Translations under genes and position numbers: made by a program
Source: Camellia lanceoleosa
Taxonomy: Eukaryota; Streptophyta; Magnoliopsida; Ericales; Theaceae
NCBI GenBank assembly: GCA_025200525.1
Contig: CM045758.1
Coordinates: 4,770,580-4,834,579, forward strand
Direction of reading: 5' to 3'
DNA length: 64,000 bases
Notes under the pieces: generated by a model
Told to the model about the DNA's origin: nothing
The model's input: the letters and a program-made list of their open reading frames with translations, nothing else
Databases searched by the model: none
Shown: in pieces, positions 3,193 through 56,100 of the stretch
Position numbering within the stretch: position 1 is the first letter of the stretch
How the letters are laid out: the number at the start of each line of letters is the position of its first letter

Positions 3193-3822
3193 TATTGGAG
3201 TTATCTCTGTATTGGAGTATGTGATCTAATTAGTTTATTAAAAAAATTTAATTTAATTTGATATTAATTATAATATATTTTTATATATTATATCTAATTT
3301 ATGAAAATTCAATTTAATTTGATAATAACTAAGATTTTGATAAAAACAAGCCAAGTGTTAACAATCTATATATAAATATTGTTTTTTCTTTCTCGGCATA
3401 TATAGCAGCAGCAGCTACTAATTGATTTTGGTGAGATAGGACTTGGGTAATCAATTCGGTGGACTTTGCTGTGGAGCAGCAGTTTGTTTATCTCTGATTT
3501 GAAATTGGTTTGAGTTATTATTTTGGATCTTTAATTTAGTTTCAAAGATTTTTGTTCATTTTTTTGGTGAGGTTTTTTTCATGTTTATTTATGATTATTT
3601 GGAATTCACCTAAGGGTGATTTTGTGAGATCATTCGTGTCTCGTTTGTGATCGTTTGGAAACTGTTTGGTTGATAGTGAAATTGGATTTCAATCCCGTGG
3701 ATGTGCCTCACATTGAGGGAACCACGTAAAATTATTGTGTTGCTTTTTATTTAATTTTTTTGCATTAATTTTTATTCTCATTGATTAATTTACTTATGGG
3801 GAATCATATATTTTCCCTAACA
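3193..3822 (+). repeat. 5' LTR of the copia element
   Basis: This LTR of about 630 bp begins TATTGGAG (the 3' LTR begins TGTTGAG, so the initial TG has mutated) and ends TTCCCTAACA, directly followed by the primer-binding site. It aligns along its length with 11953-12589, with many substitutions and small indels, so the insertion is old. Confidence 0.9.
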
Positions 3823-3869: not shown

Positions 3870-4700
3870 ATGGAGGGAAATGTGGGTCGCATTTCTAGCT
3901 TCAATGGAAGCAATTGGATAACTTGAAAAACTAAAATGGAGGACCTATTATTTTGTAAAGATTTGTATGGGCCTATTGAGGGTGACAGTGGCAAACCCGA
4001 TGATATGACAAATGATGAATGGAAGAGGCTTAATCGAAAAGCCATTGGTGTTATCCGTCAATGGATTGATGACAGTGTGCTTCATCATGTTGCTACTGAA
4101 TCTTTTGCACATGATTTATGAAAAAAAATTAGAAGGTCTTTATGATAGAAAATCAGCCACAAATAAAGTTTTTTTATTTCGTAAGTTGGTTAATTTAAAA
4201 TCTAAAGAGGGCAGTCCTATTCTAGAACATCTGAATGAAATAAAGAGTATTTTTAACCAACTTGCTTTTATGAAAATTGTTTTTGATGATGAGTTGTAGG
4301 TTTTGATGCTACTTAGTTATTTGCTCGAAAGTTGGGAGACTTTGGCTGTGATAGTTAATAATTCGGCGCCCGATAGAGTTGTCACAATGGGCCAAGTCAC
4401 TAGTAACTTGTTGAATGAAGAAACTAAAAGAAAATCAGCGGGTTCCTATCATTTGGAAGCATTTGTTGTGAGAGGCCGAAGCAAAACAAGGGGGGAGGAG
4501 TAAGACTCCTTATGGTCGTGATCAAAGTCGTGACAAATCAAAAGATTGTTCTTTTTCAAAGAAAGACATTGAGTACTATTATTGCCATGAGAAATGGCAC
4601 ATGAAGCGAGAATGCCGAAAGCTCAAGAACAAGGAGAAAGTGCGTGACAAAAGTATGGATAAAAAGAAAGAAGACACAACAGTAGTTACTACCAATGGTG
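3870..4700 (+). pseudogene. copia gag remnant (nucleocapsid)
   Basis: This is the capsid-nucleocapsid part of the copia polyprotein, which would package element RNA. The start MEGNVGRISSFNGSNW follows the primer-binding site as expected. The frame is broken by a TGA at 3924-3926 (codon 19), another stop at 4119-4121, a frameshift near 4115, further stops at 4297-4299 and 4501-4503, and a final shift. A CCHC zinc-knuckle remnant (YYYCHEKWHMKREC) lies near 4573-4614; its first cysteine is replaced by tyrosine. A degraded copia gag is secure from its order relative to protease and integrase. Confidence 0.85.
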
Positions 4701-5873: not shown

Positions 5874-7100
5874 GACTTCTTGAGTTGATTTCTTCATTAC
5901 CTACACCAAAGGAAATTATGGTTCTGTTCGAATGGGTAATAAAGGTTTGTCTAAGATTATTGGCATGGGTGATGTTTGCTTGGAAACAAATTTGGGCTAC
6001 AAGTTGTTGCTTAAAGATGTGAGGCATGTTCCTGACATTTGCCTCAATTTGATCACTATCGGGAAGTTAGATGATGAAGGTTTCAACAATAAATTTGGTG
6101 ATGGAATATGGAAGCTCACAAAGGGTTCTTTGGTGGTGGCTAAGTGCAAGAAAACTCATACACTTTATTCGATGCAAAGAAAAATTTGTAAAGGTATTGT
6201 CAATGCACTTGAAGATGATATTTCTATCGAATTGTGGCACAAGCAGCTTAGTCATATGAGTGAAAAGGGGCTACAAGTTTTGTTTAAAAAAGAGCTTCTA
6301 CCCAGTTTGAAAGGTACATATCTTAAAATTTGTGTTGATTGTTTGGCAGGTAAACAATATAAAGTTTCTTTTCATAAAAATGTTGTTTCTCGAAAAGAAA
6401 ATGTTTTGGAGTTGATTCATTCAGATGTTTGTGGTCCTTTGAAAGTTAAAACACATAGTGGTGCATTTTATTTTGTTATTTTCATTGATGATTATTCAAG
6501 GAAAGTTTGGACTTTTATACTAAAAACTAAAGATCAAGTTCTAGAAGTATTTAAACATTTTCAGGCCATGGTTGAAAGAGAAACAGGGCAAAAATTAAAG
6601 TGCATCCGATCAGACAATGGTGGTGAATACATTGGGCCATTTGATGAGTATTGTCGTAGCCAAGGTATTCGGTACCAAAAGACAGTTAAGAAAACTCCTC
6701 AATAAAATGGTATTGCCGACAGGATGAACCGCACAATTGTGGAAAAAACAAGGTGTTTGCTTTCACAAGCTAAATTGCCAAGATCTTTTTGGGGTAAGGC
6801 AATGAAGACAGCGGTTGACGTAATTAATTTGTCTCTTTCCTATCCTTTGAATGGTAATATTCCTGAAGGAGTTTGGACTGGCAAATATGTATCCTATGAG
6901 TACTTGAGAGTGTTTGGTTGTCGAGTCTTTGTTCACATTCCAAAGAATGAGAGGTCCAAGCTTGATAGTAAGTCAAGACAATGTATTTTTCTTGGCTATG
7001 AGCGTGATGAATTTGGGTATAGATTGTGAGATCCAGTCGACAAGAAAGTCATTCGAAGTCATGATGTTGTATTTCTTGAAGACCAAACAATTGAAGACTT
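5874..7100 (+). pseudogene. copia protease end and integrase remnant
   Basis: The frame from 5932 contains the copia protease tail (KDVRHVPDICLNLI) and integrase. The HHCC zinc domain is visible as WHKQLSHM followed by CVDCLAGK. Catalytic core residues are present at SDVCGPL, FIDDYSRKVW and DNGGEY. After an in-frame TAA at 6703-6705 the same frame goes on with NRTIVEKTRCLL and a C-terminal FLGYERDEFGYR block, ending at a TGA (7027-7029). The homology goes on past this stop, with a frameshift before 7194. Integrase would insert element cDNA into the genome; this copy is inactive because of the stops. Confidence 0.88.
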
Positions 7101-7193
7101 TGGCAAATGTGATCAATTGGAGCAAAAAACTAGTGATCTCATTGACATGGATCCGTCTGCTTCATCTTTAGTTGATGCTGAAAATGGGGAGAT

Positions 7194-8386
7194 GTGCAGC
7201 CACCTATTGAAGATTTGGAGGATGATGCTAATCCTAATGAAGTTGAGCAAAAAATTGAGGAAGAGTATCCAACTCAAGAACCGCCACCACAACTTGAGTT
7301 GAGAAAATCTACAAGGGACCGACAACCTTCAAGAAAGTATCCTCCAAATGAATTTGTGTTGATTTCCGATCAAGGGGAGCCTAAGAGTTACCAAGAAGCA
7401 ATTGAGCATACAAAGAAAGATGATTGGAAAAAGGCATTGGAAGATGAGATGAATTTCTTACTTGAAAATCACACTTATGATTTAATGAAGTTGCCTAAGA
7501 GGAGGAAAATTCTGAAAAATAAGTGGGTTTTCAAATTGAAGAATGATGGCAAGAATCTGAGGTACAAGGCACGTCTTGTTGTGAAAGGCTTTGGGCAAAA
7601 GAAAGGTATTGACTTTGATGAGATTTTCTCGCTGGTTGTGAAGATGTCTTCTATTCGAGTTGTACTTGGTATGGCTGCAAGTATGAACCTTGAAGTTGAA
7701 TAACTTGATGTGAAGATCACATTTTTTCATGGTGATCTTGAAGAAGAAATTTACATGGAGCAACTAGCAAGTTTTGTGAAAAAAGGGAAAGAGAAATTTG
7801 TTTGCAAATTGAAGAAAAGTTTGTATGGCCTCAAGCAAGCCCCGCGGTAATAGTACAAAAAATTTGACTCTTTCATGATGAATAATGCTTTTTCTAAAAC
7901 CAATTCGGACCATTGTGTGTTTGTGAAAAATTTCCCGATGGTAAATTTATTATTCTTTTGCTTTATGTTGATGACATGTTAATTGTGGGTCAAGATTCTA
8001 TCATGATTAACAAGTTGAAGTTAGAGTTGAGTAAATCTTTTGCTATGAAAGATTTGAGACCGTCAAAGGAAATACTTGGTATGAAAATTGTTCGTGATCG
8101 CAAAAAATGGCTAATTTGGTTGTCTCAAGAAAGATACATTGAGAAAGTTCTTGAGAGGTTTAACATGGATAAAGCAAAGACGGTTGGTTGTCCACTTGCG
8201 GGTCACTTCAAACTTAGTTTGAATCAATGTCTTATAAGTGAGAAAGACAAGGAAGAGATGCTGAAAATTTCTGAAGCTTCAGCGGTTAGTTCTTTGATGT
8301 ACGTCATGGTTTGTACAAAGCCGAATATTGCTCACGCCGTTGGTGTGGTGAGTCATTTTCTCTCTAATCCAAGTAAAGAACATTAG
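7194..8386 (+). pseudogene. copia reverse transcriptase remnant
   Basis: The frames contain the copia RT region: WKKALEDEMNFL, KNKWVFKLK, YKARLVVKGFGQ and, further on, [10 protein letters not shown] and the catalytic YVDDM (around 7966-7980). Stops interrupt it at about 7701, 7848 and 8384-8386. The order after integrase is diagnostic of Ty1/copia, not Ty3/gypsy. It is non-functional. Confidence 0.9.
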
Positions 8387-10252: not shown

Positions 10253-11869
10253 CACTACAATATCTTCTTAGTTTAGTGACATTTGAAAGTGCCACAAAAC
10301 TATTCTTCTAATGGCATTTTTTGGTCTTGTGGCATTTTGAACAAGTGCCACGGTAGATACTTGCAAGTGCCACTGCACCATCATGGCTAAAAACTTTCAA
10401 TGACATTTTAATGTCATGGTAGATATTATTTGTGGCACTGTCAAACGCCATTAAAAAAAGAGTTAGTGACACTTATAAGTGTCATTACACCATCAAGACT
10501 AAAACCTTTTAGTGACACTTTAATGTCATGGTAGGCATTATTCGTGACGCTATCAAGTGACACCATCAAGACTAAAACCTTTTAGTGACACTTTAATGTC
10601 ATGGTAGGCATTATTCGTGACGCTATCAAGTGTCATTCATGACAATAATTCGTTGTAGAACAATTTGATCCGCCCTTGCAGAGACTTGAACCACCAACCT
10701 CCCGCACCATAAACTTTATACACCACATTCTTCCCACTACACCTCTATAGCATCATATGATTATATATGCAACATATATTATTTATATAGTACATAAATC
10801 TATATTAATATAAAAGTATATGTATAAACATAATTATTTTATTGAACATAATTTATGTAAAGTAAACTATTTACTAGTAAAATGAAAAAAGACTACTTTT
10901 GGCTACTAATTATTTTTTAGTTGCTAAAAAACTTAACTTTTGCCGACCAAAATCGGATTTGGTCACCGAAGATGCACTTTCAGCTACCAAAATTTTGGTC
11001 GCCAAAAAATTTAATTCCCGTCTTAGGATTTTAGTTCTCTCGTACTAAAAATAACCATTTTTGGCGACTAAACTTATTTTTTAGTCGCCAATTGTAGACT
11101 TTTGGCTACTAAAATTTTTTTAGTCACCAAAAAGCTTTACTTTTGACTACTAAAATTTTTTTAGTTGGTAAAGCTCATATAATCAGTGACCAAACTTATT
11201 TTTAGTCGCCAATTGTAGACTTTTGGCTACTAAATTTTTTTAGTCGCCAAAAAGCTTTACTTTGGGCTACTAAAAGTAATTTGCACCTGTCTAGTGTCCT
11301 GACATTTTTTAAAAAATGCCATTACTACTAAAGTTTAGTGGCATCTGTTGGTAAATGTCACGAGCATAATTTTTTGTGTCATTATTTTATAAAATGCCAT
11401 AAAATTGATGTGATATTTCTTTATTGAAATGCCACTAGAGCCTTATATGTTTGTGGCTTTGTGGCATTTATTTAAATGTGTCACCAAATATTATTTTTGT
11501 GGCATTTTCTAAAAACGCGCAACTAGTATAGTGTCACTAAAGTGTGTTTTTGTTGTAGTTTTGTGACACTTGTTCATTGAAATATCACTAGTACCTTTTA
11601 TGTTTGTCGTTTTGTGGCATTTTTAAAAAACGTGCCACTAAATATCATTTTTGTGGCATTTTCTAAAAATATGCTACTAGTGTAGTGCCACTAAAGTATG
11701 TTTTTGTTGTAGTTTTGTGACACTTGTTCATTGAAATATCACTAAAGCCTTTTATGTTTGTCGTTTTGTGACATTTTTAAAAAACGTGTCACTAAATATC
11801 ATTTTTTGTGGCATTTTCTAAAAATATGCCACTAGTGTAGTGCCACTAAAGTATGTTTTTGTTGTAGTG
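10253..11869. mobile_element. Non-autonomous CACTA (EnSpm) element
   Basis: This 1617-bp element begins CACTACAA and ends TTGTTGTAGTG, an inverted pair with the invariant CACTA terminus. It is flanked by the 3-bp duplication ACT (10250-10252 and 11870-11872) expected for CACTA transposons. Subterminal DNA is full of short GTGCCACTAAA/TTTAGTGGCA-type repeats. Internally it has a 74-bp direct duplication (10487-10560, 10561-10634), TTTTGGCTACTAA/TTAGTCGCCAAAA repeats (10896-11280) and a duplicated unit of about 154 bp near the right end (11557-11710, 11711-11867). No transposase is present. Confidence 0.9.
10670..10760 (-). other. Possible tRNA-derived SINE head (box A/B-like)
   Basis: On the minus strand this stretch reads GTGTAGTGGGAAG about 45 bases before TGGTGGTTCAAGTCTC. 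The latter resembles an RNA polymerase III box B (GGTTCRANNC) and the former a weak box A. It lies in the middle of the CACTA element. No poly-A tail or target duplication was recognised, so a SINE fragment is only a suggestion. Confidence 0.3.
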
Positions 11870-25267: not shown

Positions 25268-26225
25268 TGAGAATCGGTTGATACACTAAAATGCTCAAAC
25301 GGCCCTAGATGTCAACGAAACTTGACACACACGATTAACTAGGCACAAATGACTTGTAGGAAAAGACGGGGCTTAAAACCGATTCTCAATTTTGAATCTA
25401 GAGTCTAATTTCCGTTTGTGAAAACTTATCCTTTAAAAACTCTTTTTCGAACTGTTTGACACACTAAAATGGCTAAACGGCGTCGGATGTCAACGAAACT
25501 TCACACACTTGAATAACTAGGCATAAATTACTTGTAAGAAAAGAAGGGACTCGAAACCGATTCCCGATTTTAAATCTAGTGTCTAATTTCTGGTTGTGAA
25601 AACTTGTCATTTAGAAACTCTTTTTTCCAAACCGATTAACTCACTAAAATGCTCAAACAATGTCAGATGTCAACGAAATTTGACACACACGACTAACTAG
25701 ACACAAATGATTTGTAGGAGAAGACAGAACTTGAAATCGATTCTTGGTTTTGAATCTAAAGCCTAATTTCTGTTTATGAAAGCTTGTTTTTTAAAAACTC
25801 CTTTTCAAACGGTTGACTCACTAAAATGCTCACACGACATCCGATGTCATCAAAACTTGACACACATGACTAACTAGGCACAAATGACTTGTAGGAGAAG
25901 ACAGAACTCAAAACTGATTTTCGGTTTTGAATCTAGAGCCTAATTTCCATTTATGAAAATTTATTCCTCACAAACTCTTTTTCGAACTGGTTGACACACT
26001 AAAATGCTCAAACGGGTTTGGATGTCAACGAAACTTGACATATACAACATACTAGGCACACGTGACTTGTAGGAGAAGATAGGACTCAAAATCGATTCTT
26101 GGTTTTGAATCTAGAGCCTAATTTCTATTTACAAAAACTTGTTCTTTAGAAACTCTTTTTCGAATCGGTTGACTCACTAAAATGGTCAAACGGCAGCGGA
26201 TGTCAACAAAACTTGTTCTTGAGTA
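25268..26225 (+). repeat. Tandem array, about 180-bp unit, 5-6 copies
   Basis: A unit beginning with GTTGACACACTAAAATGCTC and including GATGTCAACGAAACTTGACA, TAGGCACAAATGACTTGTAG and TTGAATCTAGAGCCTAATTT repeats from about 25278, 25457, 25643, 25812, 25990 and 26168 with moderate divergence. It is non-coding and lies inside the large CACTA-like element. Confidence 0.88.
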
Positions 26226-34815: not shown

Positions 34816-35561
34816 GTTGCCCATCTTTGACAAAACTCGAAAGTCATAACAGTGACGAGAGTGATTGTCAAAGCCCAGAGACGACCCATTTTTGACAAGG
34901 CCGAAGACTTAGACAAAGCATGCAAGAAGACAAGATATGCGCCCGAAGGTAGGGGCAAAATGCAAGACAATGCACAAAGCCGAACATAACTTATGATCAT
35001 GCAAAGAAAGCTGTAACGAAGCATAACATGCGACAATTTTAAGCAAGCGTACACCAAACTACACTACAATGTAGAAAGGATGTAAGAGAATTATGCAATT
35101 CTCAAAACGTCTCACTCGGAGGATACAATACCTGTCAAATGCCTGGTTGCACCTCAAATGAACCGTACATACAATATCGTGCCTGAAAAAGAAAGCAACT
35201 TAACAGGTACAATATTGTTAGCAACATGTATAACATGCAAAATGAATGCAAAATGATATGCAATATATACAAAACTATGTATAATAATGCAAAAGGAAAT
35301 GCAATGCAATTGAAACAATGCAAACGACATGCAATGCAATTGAATCATGATCCAATTATGAGCGGTTCAAAACCACGCAAATGTCAAATAGATTGATGGA
35401 AGTAACAAGTCTGTCTACTAATATTTTGAGACGGAGCGAATAGATAATTCCAATTTGAAAAAAAGGACACGTGTCAGTGAATTGTGGGTCCCGGTTAGGT
35501 ATTAACGAACTTATCTATATCTATATCTATATCTATATCTATCTATCTATCTATATATATA
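34816..35561 (-). other. Internal remnant of L1 element plus microsatellite
   Basis: Sequence beyond the L1 LTR boundary belongs, at least up to about 35170, to the internal 3' region of the same retroelement on the minus strand; no coding domain was recognised. A (CTATAT)n/(CTAT)n microsatellite at about 35513-35561 abuts the Helitron start. Confidence 0.5.
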
Positions 35562-35681
35562 TCTATATTATATGAGGAAAATGGTGATTTTAGTGAGGAG
35601 CCTCGTGAGAATTGCAATATCTCATACTAATTTTCTTAATTTTAAACAATTACGAAAATTTCTATTGATTAGCTTTTATTT

Positions 35682-36594
35682 GATAATCCCAAATCGGAAA
35701 AAGAAGAAAATAAATGAATTATTTTACTCATATAAAGTGAATCTTATACTTCCATCCCATTTAATATTGTAGTGTTGTGCATGTTTCAATTTAATATAGT
35801 TTAAATTTTAAAAGTTTTAATTAATTAATTATGACTTAACTGATTAGGTTAAATCATTTTTTATTTGATTGATTTGTTAGTTTAACCGTGATTTTAGCAG
35901 TTTTATCAAAATATATTGATTAGATTTGTTTGATTTTAAATAAATTAAAGATTGATCTAATTAAATATTGAAAGACTAAGATTGCTTTATTAGAAATAAA
36001 TTTTTCGTCCAAATAATTGTTAACTTTTATTTTATAATCCCACATCAGAAAAAGAAAAAAAAGAAAAAAAAAGTGAGTTGTTTCACTTATATAAAATGAA
36101 TCTTAATAGTGTAGTATTGTGTATACTTCAATTCAAGATAATTTAAATTTTAAAATTATTTGACATTTAAAAGTTTTAATTAATTAATTTTTGTATAAAT
36201 TGGTTGGTCATTTGACCTAACCAATTAGGTTGAACCATTTTGGATTTTGATCGATTCGCTGGTTTAATCGCGATTTCTCGTACTGATTTTATTAATTTTA
36301 AACAATTAAAAAATTTTCCATTGACTAACTTCTATTTAACGATACAAAAATAAAATTTTAATTAGTTTATGATTTATTTTATAATCCCACATCGGGAGAA
36401 GAAGAAAAAACAAAGTTTGTTTCACTATCTATCTATATATTATATAAGAAAAAAGGGGGGTTTTTATAGAGAAGCCTTCTAGGAGTTTCAAATCCTTATT
36501 CTAAAATTATTGAATTTTCTTAATTTTAAACAATTAAGAAAATGCTCGTTGGCTACCTTCTATTTATCTTTTATTTTATAATCGTACATTGGAA

Positions 36595-36625
<31 letters not shown>

Positions 36626-38440
36626 TAAAATAAAAAGTGAATAATTTCACTTAAATAAAGTGAATCTTATGCTCCCATTTATATAAGCAAAAAGAGATTT
36701 TTAGTGAGAAACCCTATAATTAAAATATCATACTCATTTTTTTGATGTTCTTAATTTTAAACAATTAAGAAAATCTCCATTAGCTAGCCTCCATTTAATT
36801 TTTATTTTACAATCCCACATAGACGTTCTGATTTTAAAAATAATTTTGTATGATATTTTGAAACTCTCATAATATTGAATTTTAAAATAATTACAATCCC
36901 ATATCAAGAAAAGAAAGAAAAAGTGAGTTGTTTCACTTATATAAAGTGTTACAATCCCACATCGAGAAAAGAAAGAAAAGTGAGTTGTTTCACTTATATG
37001 AAATGAATCTTATGAAGGGGTTTTGAAGGAGAAGCCTGTTAGAAGCTCCAAACTCTTATTTTAAAATTATTGAATTTTTTTAATTTTAAACAATTAAGAA
37101 AATTCCCATTGGCTAGTTTCCATTTACCTTTTATATTACAATCCCAAATCAGGATAAAAAGGAAAAAAGTGAATTGTTTCATTTACGTAAAGTGAATCTT
37201 ATACTCCAATTTATATAAATTATTGAATTTTCTTAATTTTAAAAAATTAAGAAAATCCACAATGGTTAATTTCCATTTAACTTTTATTTTACAATCACAC
37301 ATCGGGAAAATAAGGAAAAAGTGAATTGTTTCACTTATATAAAGTGAATCTCATGCTTCCATTTATATAAGTAAAGAAGATTTTAATGAGAAGCTCTATA
37401 ACCAATACCATTTTTTTTTATTTTCTTATTTTAAACAAATTTTTTTTAGAAGCCCTATAAGTGAGTTGTTTCACTTATATAAAGTGTTACAATCTCACAT
37501 CGGGAAAAGAAAGAAAAAATGAGTTGTTTCACTTATATAAAGTGAATCTTATAAAGGGGTTTTGAGAGAGAAGCCTTCTAGAAACTCCAAACCGTTATTT
37601 TAAAATTATTGAATTTTCTTAATTTTAAACAATTTAAAAAATTCTCAATGCTTCATTTAATCTTATGCTTCAATTTATATAAATTATTGAATTTTCTTAA
37701 TTTTAAACAATTAAGAAAATCTCCATTGGTTAGCTTCTATTTAACTTTTATTTTACAATCCCACATCGGGAAAAGAAGGAAAAAATGAATTGTTTCACTT
37801 ATATAAAGTGAATTTTATGCTCCCATTTATATAAGTAAAAGAAGTTTTTTAGTGAGAAGCCCTATAATCAATATCAATTTTTTTTTCTTAATTTTAGACG
37901 ATTAAGAAAATCTCCATTGGTTAGTTTTCATTTAACTTTTATTTTACAATCCCACATAAATATTTTGATTTTAAAAATAATTTTGTATGAGATTTTTGAA
38001 AGTCTCATAATATTTAACTTTAAAATAATTACAATCCTATATCGAGAAAAAAAAAAAAAGAAAAAGTGAGTTGTTTCACTTATATAAAGTGAATCTTATA
38101 CTCTCATTTAACATTACAGTATTATGTATGTTTCAGTTCAAGATGGTTTAAATTTTAAAATATAATTTAAAGGTTTTAATTAATTAATTTTGTTGTAAAT
38201 TGATTGGTCTTTTGACTTAGCTAATTAAATTTGAATCGATTTGGTTTGGTGATTCACTGATTTAACCATGATTTTAGCTATTTTATCAAAATATATTGCT
38301 TAGATTTGTCTGATTTGAAATAAATTAAGATCGACCTTATTAAAAATTGAACGACTGAGATTACTTGATTAGAAATAAACTTCCCGTCTAAACAACTGTT
38401 AACTTTTATTTTACAATCCCACATCAGGAAAAGGAGGAAA
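35682..38440 (+). promoter_or_regulatory. Array of USE + TATA (U-snRNA-type) promoter-like modules
   Basis: The plant U-snRNA upstream sequence element RTCCCACATCG occurs repeatedly, about 31 bases before TATATAAAG. The best copy is at 37758-37768 with TATA at 37800-37807, which is a perfect ATCCCACATCG. Others start near 35684, 36036, 36381, 36893, 36950, 37139, 37292, 37489, 38028 and 38411, with 1-3 changes; further copies are at about 41061 and 55556. In plant snRNA genes a USE-TATA gap of about 34 bp selects RNA polymerase II and about 24 bp polymerase III. The spacing here is nearer the former. No snRNA body follows the modules. Promoter activity is inferred only. Confidence 0.55.
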
Positions 38441-38825
38441 AATGAGTTCTTTCACTATATAAACATTATGCTCCCATTTAATATTCTAGTGTTGTGCATG
38501 TTTCAGTTTAAGACAGTTTAAATTTGAAAATTAAAATAAAATATTTAATTTTTAATTAATTAATTTTTGTATAAGTTGGTTGGTCCTTTAACCTAGTTGA
38601 TAGGGTGAACCGTTTTGGTTTGACTGATTCGCTGGTTTACCTGCAATTTTACCAGTTTTGTCAAAATATATTGGTTAAATTTGTTTGATTCAAAATAAAT
38701 TAAAGATTGACCTAATTAAATATTAAACGGCTAAGATTGCTTGATTCCAAATAAACTTCCCGCCCAAACAATTGTTTACTTTTAAATGATTAAGAAAATC
38801 CACATTGGTTAGCTTTTATTTAACT

Positions 38826-41047
38826 TGTAGCGCCCTCAAAATAATACATATAAACCCAACATTTATGACATCCATAGACATAAGAGAATAAAGCATATTT
38901 CCATTTATCAGAGTATTTAGTACAAAAAGCATTACATGTTGACAAAAAAAGTAAATGCCCTATGGGCTTACAACTTTTCAAGCCAACACTTGGATTTAAC
39001 AAAAGAAGAGTTCTACTCTTTATACAAAATAAGCCATTGGCTTGATTTACATGTAATACAAAAAGATAATCACAAAATAAGCTTTCAGCTTCTAAACTTC
39101 CTAAGCTACAGTCTCGAAGGCGGCATATCTCCTGTACCTAAAAATGATGTCCCATATAGGGTGAGCCAAAGCCCAGTAGAGATACGCTAAACCAAATATG
39201 AGCAATAACTAAAACATTAACATTTGATAAATGTTTAACTCATATAAGCAAACGTACATCTCTTTCATAACCAATCCATATTCACAAATATATTTCAATC
39301 TCTTTCCATTTCATTATCCAAACCAATTCATAGATGTGGTTTTCTATTCATCCAGATAGTTTATACTGAGACTACAACTCATATTAACAATACTTCGATC
39401 ATGATCAATTAATATGAGACTACAACCCATATTATCAATATTTCAATACTTCAATTCATCTACGTTCATAAACGTAATTAGGATTTCGGGACTTTCACCC
39501 TCGACACTCCGGCCAACTTAGTTATCAATGGAGTCCATCCCCTATCTCCTCTCAAACCATGGAGTACATCCCCTATCTCCTCCCAAACAATATAGATATA
39601 CAATGTATTTAAACACTTATCATATACAATGATCAATCAATACACATATTCAATGTATTATTCCAACCGTCATATTCAATGACATATTCCAGGTGATTAG
39701 TTTCAGTTTTCCCTAATCAACATACAGTGTCTACAACAATCAAGACTATCCTCTACCGATAGCCCAAAGCAGTTATTTCTAAACAGATAATAAATTCATC
39801 AACAGAAAAATTATCAATAATTTCATAGGTGAGTGATTAACTAATCCATCTACACCATTCAATCTCATACTTTCCCAATTTCATGATTTTCATCTCTATT
39901 TCACATTTTCATGATTTCCCCAAATTAATTATACAAATTAATTAATCACATTAAATTAGGGCTTTTCCCCTTTTTCCCCACTTTAGCCCTAAGGCTCCAT
40001 TTCATCAATTCAACAACAATAATTCCATTTTCCAAGGTCTCACATACACATGGAGTTTAACAATCTAAAACCCCTTTTTTTTTATAACTTCAAATCAAAA
40101 CCCTAACTTCCCAAAATTTCTATAACTCATCATTTAATCAAAATGACTAAAATTTATGTCATAACTCATAAGATGGAGTAGTTTATCCCTACCTTAAAAG
40201 AAGAGACTCAAAGGAGATGAAGGTGAAAACCCAAGATGCTCCAAACACCAACTTTTTGGATCAAAGAGGAGCCCACGCCAAGCTCTACCTTTCTTACAAA
40301 GGGATTAGGGTAGAAGACTCCTAGAACTAGATGTATTTGTAGAGAAGATGTATGTAGAGAGAGAAGCGATGGGGCTAGGGTTTGAGTAAAGAAAATGATG
40401 AAAAAGTAAAGAAGAAGTTCTTTGCTATGATCGATATATTCGAACCTCGTTCGAAGCGAATGAGTGGTCGCCGACCGACCAGACACAAAGAAATCTCGCC
40501 GAGCGCAGAAAGCCTCGCCGAGCTAACAACACGGCTTCAAGTCTGCAGAACCGAAGCACGCCGGCGAAGAAAAGCTCGCTCGAGCGAAGAAATCCAAAAC
40601 ATAGTCCTCGCTCGCTCGAGCCAAGAAACACAACCTTCGGGTCAAAAGAGAAGCAAACGCACGCTCGAGCGCAAGACCTCTCGCTCGAGCGAAGAGACAC
40701 ACCAGACCAAGCTTGCTCGAGCGAAGAAAAGCTCGCTCGAGCCAAAGGCCGCGTTGAAAAAAAACGAAGACCCACAATACTCACTCGGCGTACAAACCTC
40801 GCTCGAGCGAAGAAACAAAAACACAAGGCTTGCTCAACCGACAAAGTCCTAGCTCGAGCGAAGAGACCAAAAACTGGACAGCAACCATTTGTTTCAAAAC
40901 ACACCCAACTGTTACAAACACCTTAACACATCATAAACTCAAATACAACGAATTAAAGGACGGAAATGCAACATACACAACATTACTCAACCGAGGAACC
41001 CAAGCCCGGAATACAATACATAAAGGGAAAAACCTGGGATCGCTATA
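38826..41047 (-). mobile_element. Gypsy-type solo LTR, family G
   Basis: This 2222-bp insert is flanked by a perfect 5-bp duplication TAACT (38821-38825 and 41048-41052) and splits a Helitron repeat unit. On the minus strand it starts TATAGCGATCCCAGG (TG mutated to TA) and ends GGGCGCTACA. It matches 29894-31144 in opposite orientation and 63662-64000 in the same orientation. About nine CGCTCGAGCGAAG-type motifs lie at 40568-40862, within U3. Long open frames on both strands here (40382-40852, 40425-40904) come from this GC-rich repeat and are not genes. Confidence 0.9.
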
Positions 41048-42372
41048 TAACTTTTATTTCATAATCACACATTGAGAAAAGAAGGAAAAAGTGAAGTGAA
41101 TTGTTTCACTTACATAAAGTGAATCTTATACTCTCATTTATATAAGCAAAATGAAATTTTTAGTAAGAAGCCTTATAATCAATATTTCATACTCATTTTT
41201 TTGATTTTCTTAATTTTAAACAATTAAGAAAATCTTGATTGGCTAGCTTTCATTTAACTTTTATTTTACAATCCCACATAGAGGTTTTGATTTTAAAAAT
41301 AATTTTGTATGGGATTTTAAAACTCTCATAATATCTCTCCTTAAAAGTTTTCTTTTATAAAATGTATAGATATATCGATAATCTCAATGTCACACTTACT
41401 GCTCCTTAATACAAAAATTATGAGATACTTATAATAATTTTAAATTTGTATTTAAAACTTATAAATTATGCGATAGATTATTATAATTTTTATTGTGTCG
41501 ATTTTAAATTTAAATTAATAGATTATTTTTCATATTTAGTGACAGTTTAAATTTTAATAAAATAAAATTTAAAAATTTTAATTAATTAATTTTTGTGTAA
41601 GCTGGTTGGTCTTTTGACCTAACTGATTAAGCTAAACCATTTTTCGTTTGAATGATTTGCTAGTTTAAACGTAATTTTAGCGGTTTTACATGTTATGATT
41701 ACTCATTAAGTTTTTAAAATTTCTTTAATTATTTCCTTTTCAAAAATCGATATGATAACTTTTTAAAATTTATATATTTTTATTCTAAAATAGTGAAGTA
41801 TTAGAATTACGTTATTTTTTTTTATAACAAAGCATAATTTTAATTATTAATTGTCAATACAACAATTTTAATCTATCTATACTATATATTATAGTAAATG
41901 AACATTTGAAAGAAATCCCTTAAACTTATATATAAAATTTTATTTACGTGAGAAAAAATATAAAAAAATTAAATATAATTATCATATTTTTAATTAATAA
42001 TATATTATGTTGTCCCGTGCATAGCACGAGTGATATGCTAGTATATTATATAAGGAAAATGGAGTTTCTAGTGAGAAGACTTGTGAGAGCTCCAAAGTCT
42101 CATTCCACAATTTTTAATATTTGTGATTTTAAATATATTTAAAAACAATTCTATTGGCTAACAAAGTAATTATAGATTAAAAATAAATAAAAAACCACCT
42201 AAAATTTTGAATTACAAGTTAATAAAATCTTGAATTACAGGTTCCTAAAATCTCTCATCCCAATATTTCTCCCTTCCTAAATCTTCTCTTATAACAAAAT
42301 AACTATACAATAAAAAAATATTATACATTAAAAAAAAAAAATCTCATTTCAAAAGAAAGTAATTATATATAT

Positions 42373-55050: not shown

Positions 55051-55422
55051 CATGTTACGATTATTTTTTCTTTCTCATTAAGTTTTTAAAATTTCTTTAA
55101 TTATTTCCCTTTCCAAAACCAATATAACAATTTTTAAAATGCATATATTTTTATTCTAAAATAGTAAACTATTAGAACTATGTCTTTTTTTTTTCTTTTT
55201 TTTTTATAACAAAGCATAATTTTAATTGTTAATTGTTAATACAATAATTTTAATCTATCTATGCTATATATTATAGAAAAGGAACATTTGAAACAAAACT
55301 CTTAAACTTATATATAAAATTTTATTTAAGAGAGACAAAATACAAAAAATTAAAATAATTATCGTATTTTTAATAAATAATATATTATTTTATCACATGC
55401 ATAGCACGGGTGACATGCTAAT

Positions 55423-56100
55423 ATTATATAAGGAAAAGAGATTTTAGGAAGAAGCTTTCTAGAAGCTCCAAATTCTCATTTTAAAATTATTAAATTTTCT
55501 TAATTTTAAACAATTAAGAAAATTTTCATTGGCTAACTTCCATTTACCTTTTATTTTATAATTCCATATCGGGAAAAAAAAGAAAAAGTGAATTGTTTCA
55601 CTTACATAAAGTGAATCTTATACTCTTATTCATGTAAGCAAAATGAGATTTTTAATAAGAAACTTTATGATCAATATCTCATACTAATTTCTTTGATTTT
55701 CTTAATTTTAAACAATTAAGAAAATTATCATTGGCTAACTTCCATTTAACTTTTATTTTAGGATCCCACATAGAGGTTTTGATTTTAAAAATAATTTTAT
55801 ATGAGGTTTTAAAACTCTCATAATATCTTTCATTAAAAGTATTATTTTGTAAAATATATAGATATATTGATAATTTCAACGTCACTCTTACTGCTCCTTA
55901 ATACCAAAATTATGAGATAATAATGATAATTTTAAATTTGTATTTAAAACTTATAAATCATAGGAAAGATTATTATAATTTTAAATTTATATTGGGTCAA
56001 TTTTAAATTTAAATTAATAGATTGTTTTCCACATTTAATGACGGTTTAAATTTTAATGAAATAAAATTTAAAAATTTTAATTAATTAATTATTTTTTGTA
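55423..56100 (+). mobile_element. Helitron copy C, 3'-truncated
   Basis: It starts ATTATATAAGGAAAAGAG directly after the end of copy B and is collinear with the 5' units of copy A and then with 41300-41620. It includes one USE-like (CCATATCGG) plus ACATAAAG module at about 55556-55612. It stops near TTTGTAGGCTGGTT, before the hairpin end seen in A and B. Confidence 0.7.

Follow-up and report, generated by a model that had tools for sequence, protein, structure and literature searches.

In Arabidopsis, RC/Helitrons have spread binding motifs of PHERES1, for which a single ancestral acquisition is favoured by the authors in the part of PMC6914339 that deals with the motif. The end features by which Helitrons are recognized, as well as the head-to-tail arrangement of Helitrons in maize and in the bat Myotis, are those given in the relevant sections of PMC2267711, and the 3' box motif of plant snRNA genes, CA(N)3-10AGTNNAA, is taken from the corresponding section of PMC5079582. 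No report of promoter modules made of an upstream sequence element (USE) and a TATA box in Helitrons was found in the open-licence literature, absence from which is weak evidence.

The locus described here lies in a window of 64 kb, that is the whole stretch of DNA that was analysed, corresponding to bases 4,770,580-4,834,579 of contig C1 in the 3.0-Gb genome of Camellia lanceoleosa. It contains an array of paired motifs which we tentatively explain, with a probability of about 0.48, as an ancestral promoter module of the Pol II-snRNA type carried by a composite Helitron family, dispersed by transposition and now drifting, its promoter activity being putative. The module consists of the USE (ATCCCACATCG), a purine-rich spacer and a TATA box 31 bases further on, as in the core promoter architecture of plant Pol II snRNA genes. 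It may once have worked as a Pol II start via a USE-binding factor, and some intact copies may still do so, with initiation predicted ca. 31 bases downstream of the TATA box in each unit and, for the best one, near 37,831; the module may also have served transcription of the source elements.

As a motif architecture, the USE-TATA pair in the array is real. Sites matching RTCCCACATCG with up to two mismatches occur 31 times in the window versus 10.85 expected from shuffles, and 15 of the 31 sit in the Helitron repeat (35,686-41,281), all on the + strand, a further match at 39,149 being excluded because it falls inside an LTR insertion. When the USE is allowed two mismatches and TATATAAAG one, with gaps of 20 to 45 bases, nine pairs are found in the region and none in 100 first-order Markov resamples of it; beyond the array, the window holds one pair on the + strand (55,561) and none on the - strand. 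Perfect USEs stand at 36,384, 36,954 and 37,758, both parts of the pair being perfect at 37,758 only, and in four window modules purines make up 0.90-0.95 of the first 20 bases of the spacer. The features are listed below with the evidence for them in brackets.

35562..42041, + strand: composite element of Helitron type in which 5' parts recur, its 5' limit uncertain inside the TATC-rich stretch 35512-35573 (5'-like and 3' end motifs; collinear copies elsewhere)
35686..35737, + strand: USE-TATA module, gap 32 (pair scan)
36037..36096, + strand: USE-TATA module, gap 40 (pair scan)
36384..36394, + strand: perfect USE whose TATA was lost at a Helitron-5'-like junction (pair scan, end motifs)
36812..36822, + strand: orphan USE-like site at a class X junction, without TATA (pair scan)
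36896..36946, + strand: USE-TATA module, gap 31 (pair scan)
36954..37003, + strand: perfect USE with a decayed TATA (2 mismatches), gap 30 (looser TATA)
37141..37192, + strand: decayed module (USE 2 and TATA 2 mismatches), gap 32 (looser TATA)
37294..37344, + strand: USE-TATA module, gap 31 (pair scan)
37492..37542, + strand: USE-TATA module, gap 31 (pair scan)
37758..37808, + strand: USE-TATA module, gap 31, both parts perfect, predicted start near 37831
37949..37959, + strand: orphan USE-like site without TATA (pair scan)
38034..38089, + strand: USE-TATA module, gap 36 (pair scan)
38416..38464, + strand: USE-TATA module, gap 29 (pair scan)
38826..41047, no strand assigned: solo-LTR-like insertion that interrupts the array (TAACT target duplication at 38821-38825 and 41048-41052; absent from locus L008)
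41064..41119, + strand: USE-TATA module, gap 36 (pair scan)
41271..41281, + strand: orphan USE-like site without TATA (pair scan)
42014..42041, + strand: Helitron 3' end, hairpin and CTAG with T as the next base (4,444 genome places with up to 3 mismatches)
55561..55611, + strand: module of the second family copy in the window, decayed, gap 31

The first-pass annotation had counted at least ten units over 35682..41110, with a TATA about 31 bases from the USE and a perfect USE at 37758. The latter is correct and the TATA at that place is perfect too. The count comes to nine with at most one TATA mismatch and reaches 11 only when a TATA with two mismatches is admitted (extra pairs at 36,954 and 37,141). 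The spacing applies to part of the units, the nine gaps being, in order, 32, 40, 31, 31, 31, 31, 36, 29 and 36, five of which are 31-32. As for the span, the motif pair itself stands but the interval takes in a solo-LTR-like insertion of 2,222 bases. Elsewhere in the window, open frames at 5932-8386 resemble pieces of what we take to be a Copia-type polyprotein, and tandem arrays occur at 25271-26215 (178-base units, 5.3 copies) and 11409-11868 (154-base units, 3.0 copies).

The carrier is a composite, high-copy family of Helitron type, probably non-autonomous. Genome-wide, 539 matches to the exact pair ATCCCACATCG-N20-45-TATATAAAG were counted and none to the reversed pattern; because the family represents one origin, these copies do not amount to 539 independent events. 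With up to three mismatches, an anchor located outside the module and upstream of the USE occurs at 3,660 genome places and the 28-base 3' end (42,014-42,041) at 4,444. Detailed samples were drawn from the matches listed (100 of the 539 modules, 100 of the 3,660 anchors and 100 of the 4,444 3' ends), and a spacer typical of the family was recognized by eye in all but one of the 100 modules. In all 19 of the 3' ends that were fetched, homology halts at CTAG, the hairpin is present and the next base is T, as in the window copy where T at 42,042 directly follows CTAG, so that the Helitron nature proposed for the carrier in the first-pass annotation is upheld. TC-like 5' starts were observed as well, the start of the array itself falling in a TATC repeat. 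By a pattern written after inspection of the ends, CTAG runs straight into a Helitron-like 5' start in 11 of the 19, several of these starts being truncated or devoid of their first bases. Junctions of this head-to-tail kind seem to be frequent in the genome (loci L175-L193). Both family copies of the window end in a stretch of 170 bases (41872-42041 and ca. 55254-55424) that starts with A|TCTATC, finishes with a hairpin and CTAG|T (CTAA in the second copy) and resembles a miniature Helitron.

Matches to Helitron_like_N number 150 in the genome, and one of them is followed, 5.7 kb downstream and on the same strand, by a 3' end with 28 identical bases. No module is present in the 5.1 kb fetched that surround this RepHel match and extend upstream of it. 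A role of the module as a general RepHel promoter was rejected, since none of six RepHel genes has it upstream (3.7-5.1 kb fetched, with USE-like matches checked for a TATA by eye).

Comparison of the copies indicates that the array is an inherited composite that was not locally amplified. Other module loci align to the window in seven cases out of seven, over 1.0-2.0 kb and several modules with 75-86% identity, although six of the seven are grouped inside a 0.7-Mb part of C1, with an overlap between two loci, so that they are not independent. When four stretches of that part of C1 are removed from the anchor sample, 35 of the 76 remaining give alignments that cover 450 or more of 593 bases with 70-91% identity. 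Among them are copies on other contigs, representing other chromosomes, that are collinear with 37,659-38,227, which comprises two modules and an orphan USE. Among 80 sampled units, which include some near-duplicates, 63 have the tail of another module within 260 bases upstream. Modules are present in 65 of the 80 anchor-sampled stretches, 34 of which have two or more. The solo-LTR-like insertion (38,826-41,047), which has TGTAGCG...CGCTATA ends, is nested in the Helitron, and in L008 the two sides that flank it are joined without any insertion. Similar LTR ends adjoin other copies (L008 and L103).

The snRNA genes found in the same genome (U1, U2, U5 and U6) have plant-type USE promoters, with at least 42 matches for U1, 31 for U2 and 33 for U5, some of which are pseudogenes. 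At loci with no more than one USE mismatch, the USE-TATA gap is 34-36 for U1 (n = 11, all of the 11 fetched among 42 found), 30-35 for U2 (n = 5), 32-36 for U5 (n = 6) and 24-28 for U6 (n = 12); loci with two or more USE mismatches were dropped (25/30 for U2, 18/30 for U6 and 3/9 for U5), some being pseudogenes, N-masked or given misplaced ends. Because the TATA was sought within a set interval upstream of the gene, where some U1 and U5 boxes are poor matches, these gaps partly restate the USE-to-start distance, which is -75 to -77 for U1, -73 to -79 for U2, -81 to -83 for U5 and -65 to -66 for U6. In the Helitron modules, the gap is 31 in 50 and 30-36 in 82 of the 100 listed among 539, and 30-36 in 91 of the 102 modules of the anchor sample. 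The modal value of 31 exceeds that of U6 by ca. one helical turn, and the likeness to the spacing of Pol II snRNA genes that the first-pass annotation had pointed out is confirmed against the 30-36 of U1, U2 and U5. In the snRNA genes, the fraction of purines over the first 20 bases of the spacer is 0.84 for U1, 0.95 for U2, 0.68 for U5 and 0.56 for U6. On these measurements the spacing of the module fits the Pol II snRNA class and its purine-rich spacer is like that of U1 and U2. The U1 matches are mainly clustered on C3 (119.8-125.3 Mb) and those of U5 on C10 (101.1-102.6 Mb), C4 (29.6-31.2 Mb) and C6 (204.5 Mb); on C14 (130.6 Mb), U1 and weak U2 matches are no more than ca. 1 kb apart and are separated by N-masked stretches.

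The same two elements also serve U6, and eight of the 100 listed modules (of 539) have gaps of 24-27, but a U6-type Pol III promoter giving very short RNAs is hardly credible here, given a modal gap of 31 versus 24-28 in the U6 genes of this genome and the presence of a TTTT run 15-63 bases past the predicted start in each of the nine window modules, so that Pol III products would be tiny.

A USE, a gap class and a purine-rich spacer that are the same as in U1 and U2, together with the captured host sequence that Helitrons carry according to the pertinent part of PMC13317346, would suit a scenario in which an snRNA promoter of U1 or U2 type was acquired by a Helitron and then amplified. Such a capture, which the first-pass annotation had proposed for an snRNA-like promoter, is very unlikely since no accompanying trace was recovered, even though traces of an old event could have been lost. 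At gathering scores the window has no Rfam match, and at E values up to 5 no snRNA remnant occurs in 35,400-42,200, the sole match there being a CRISPR-repeat model (E 4.7) taken as chance. Downstream of the modules, the 3' box CA(N)3-10AGTNNAA is found four times versus 2.86 expected, four being reached in 84 of 300 resamples, and the alignment of the module spacer to snRNA promoters exceeds shuffles (z > 2) in only one of 30 cases.

The lack of snRNA promoter homology beyond composition also bears on an alternative in which an AT-rich ancestral repeat happened to hold an 11-mer identical to the USE and, at a suitable distance, a TATA-like stretch, was never a promoter and was simply copied along with the Helitron. 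From base composition, the expectation for an exact USE and TATAWAAR with a gap of 30-36 is ca. 4e-5 to 1.6e-4 in 64 kb and ca. 2 to 7.5 in 3 Gb, versus 539 exact pairs counted in the genome, and the spacer is in addition purine-rich as in U1 and U2, both of which speak against coincidence. Though unlikely, this origin of the module keeps an appreciable weight because the family has a single origin and many other motif pairs could have caught a reader's eye; it also agrees with the absence of any conservation peak at the two motifs, as described below.

In the first-pass annotation, the pair was held to be the best-conserved part of the repeats, and uniform decay of the aligned units or variable spacing in the family were named as observations that would refute the idea. 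The first was found and the second was not. In copies sampled without using the motif, the USE and TATA columns are kept no better than comparable columns and show no conservation peak, 12 of the 80 units (four of class Z and eight others) being left out of the first test, in which the other columns included eight anchor bases selected as identical; a second test that dropped these bases had the same outcome. A USE lacking its TATA decays like a USE in a full module, and an orphan USE as well as a USE with a lost TATA were amplified too. The consensus of each of the three classes (U, Y and X) has USE and TATA with a gap of 31, and four of the 80 sampled units, forming class Z, carry other sequence at the TATA position. 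The impression of conservation likely comes from mosaic classes that share the module block between different flanks. Present copies drift, mostly by C-to-T change, and most modules would therefore be relics.

The TATA-like stretch forms the loop of a palindrome, TTCACTT-ATATA-AAGTGAA, in the class U and X consensus, which raises the question of a function in transposition or folding with promoter likeness as a side effect. This is most improbable, as the palindrome is broken in the class Y consensus and its arms pair, in 91 copies, as often as expected under independent change; the test is lenient because closeness to the palindrome was the criterion by which the 91 copies were selected. A hairpin role was thus rejected for want of covariation.

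Under the preferred reading of an ancestral module that is now drifting, the copies of the family would still include hundreds of intact candidate promoters. It is distinctly unlikely that these are working snRNA-type promoters from which short non-coding RNAs arise as a large hidden class, or which sequester the USE-binding complex, the neutral drift of individual copies masking selection on a few source elements. If they were active, a transposon would have been spreading the start signal of splicing-RNA genes, with 539 exact copies beside the true snRNA genes, and the natural spread of spacings and USE variants would allow the requirements of the plant USE-TATA code to be tested. If they are inactive, the array is a caution that the impression of conservation given by promoter motifs within repeats disappears once copies are sampled independently of the motif.

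Among the systems compared, the spread of PHERES1 sites may be regarded by analogy as the nearest precedent, since in the relevant part of PMC6914339 a Helitron family consensus likewise carries and distributes a host regulatory motif. That motif is a site for a transcription factor, documented by binding and expression data, whereas the Camellia module is a putative core promoter of two parts that recurs within copies. With plant Pol II U-snRNA promoters, as presented in the corresponding parts of PMC9845283 and PMC5079582, the module shares the USE consensus, the TATA and a Pol II-type gap measured in the same genome, but it is located in a transposon and is followed by neither an snRNA nor an excess of 3' boxes. 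Finally, a CTAG immediately followed by a Helitron-like 5' start recalls the head-to-tail Helitrons of maize and Myotis in the sections of PMC2267711 cited above, with the difference that here several 5' starts adjoining a CTAG are truncated and that repetition of the 5' part within elements is common.
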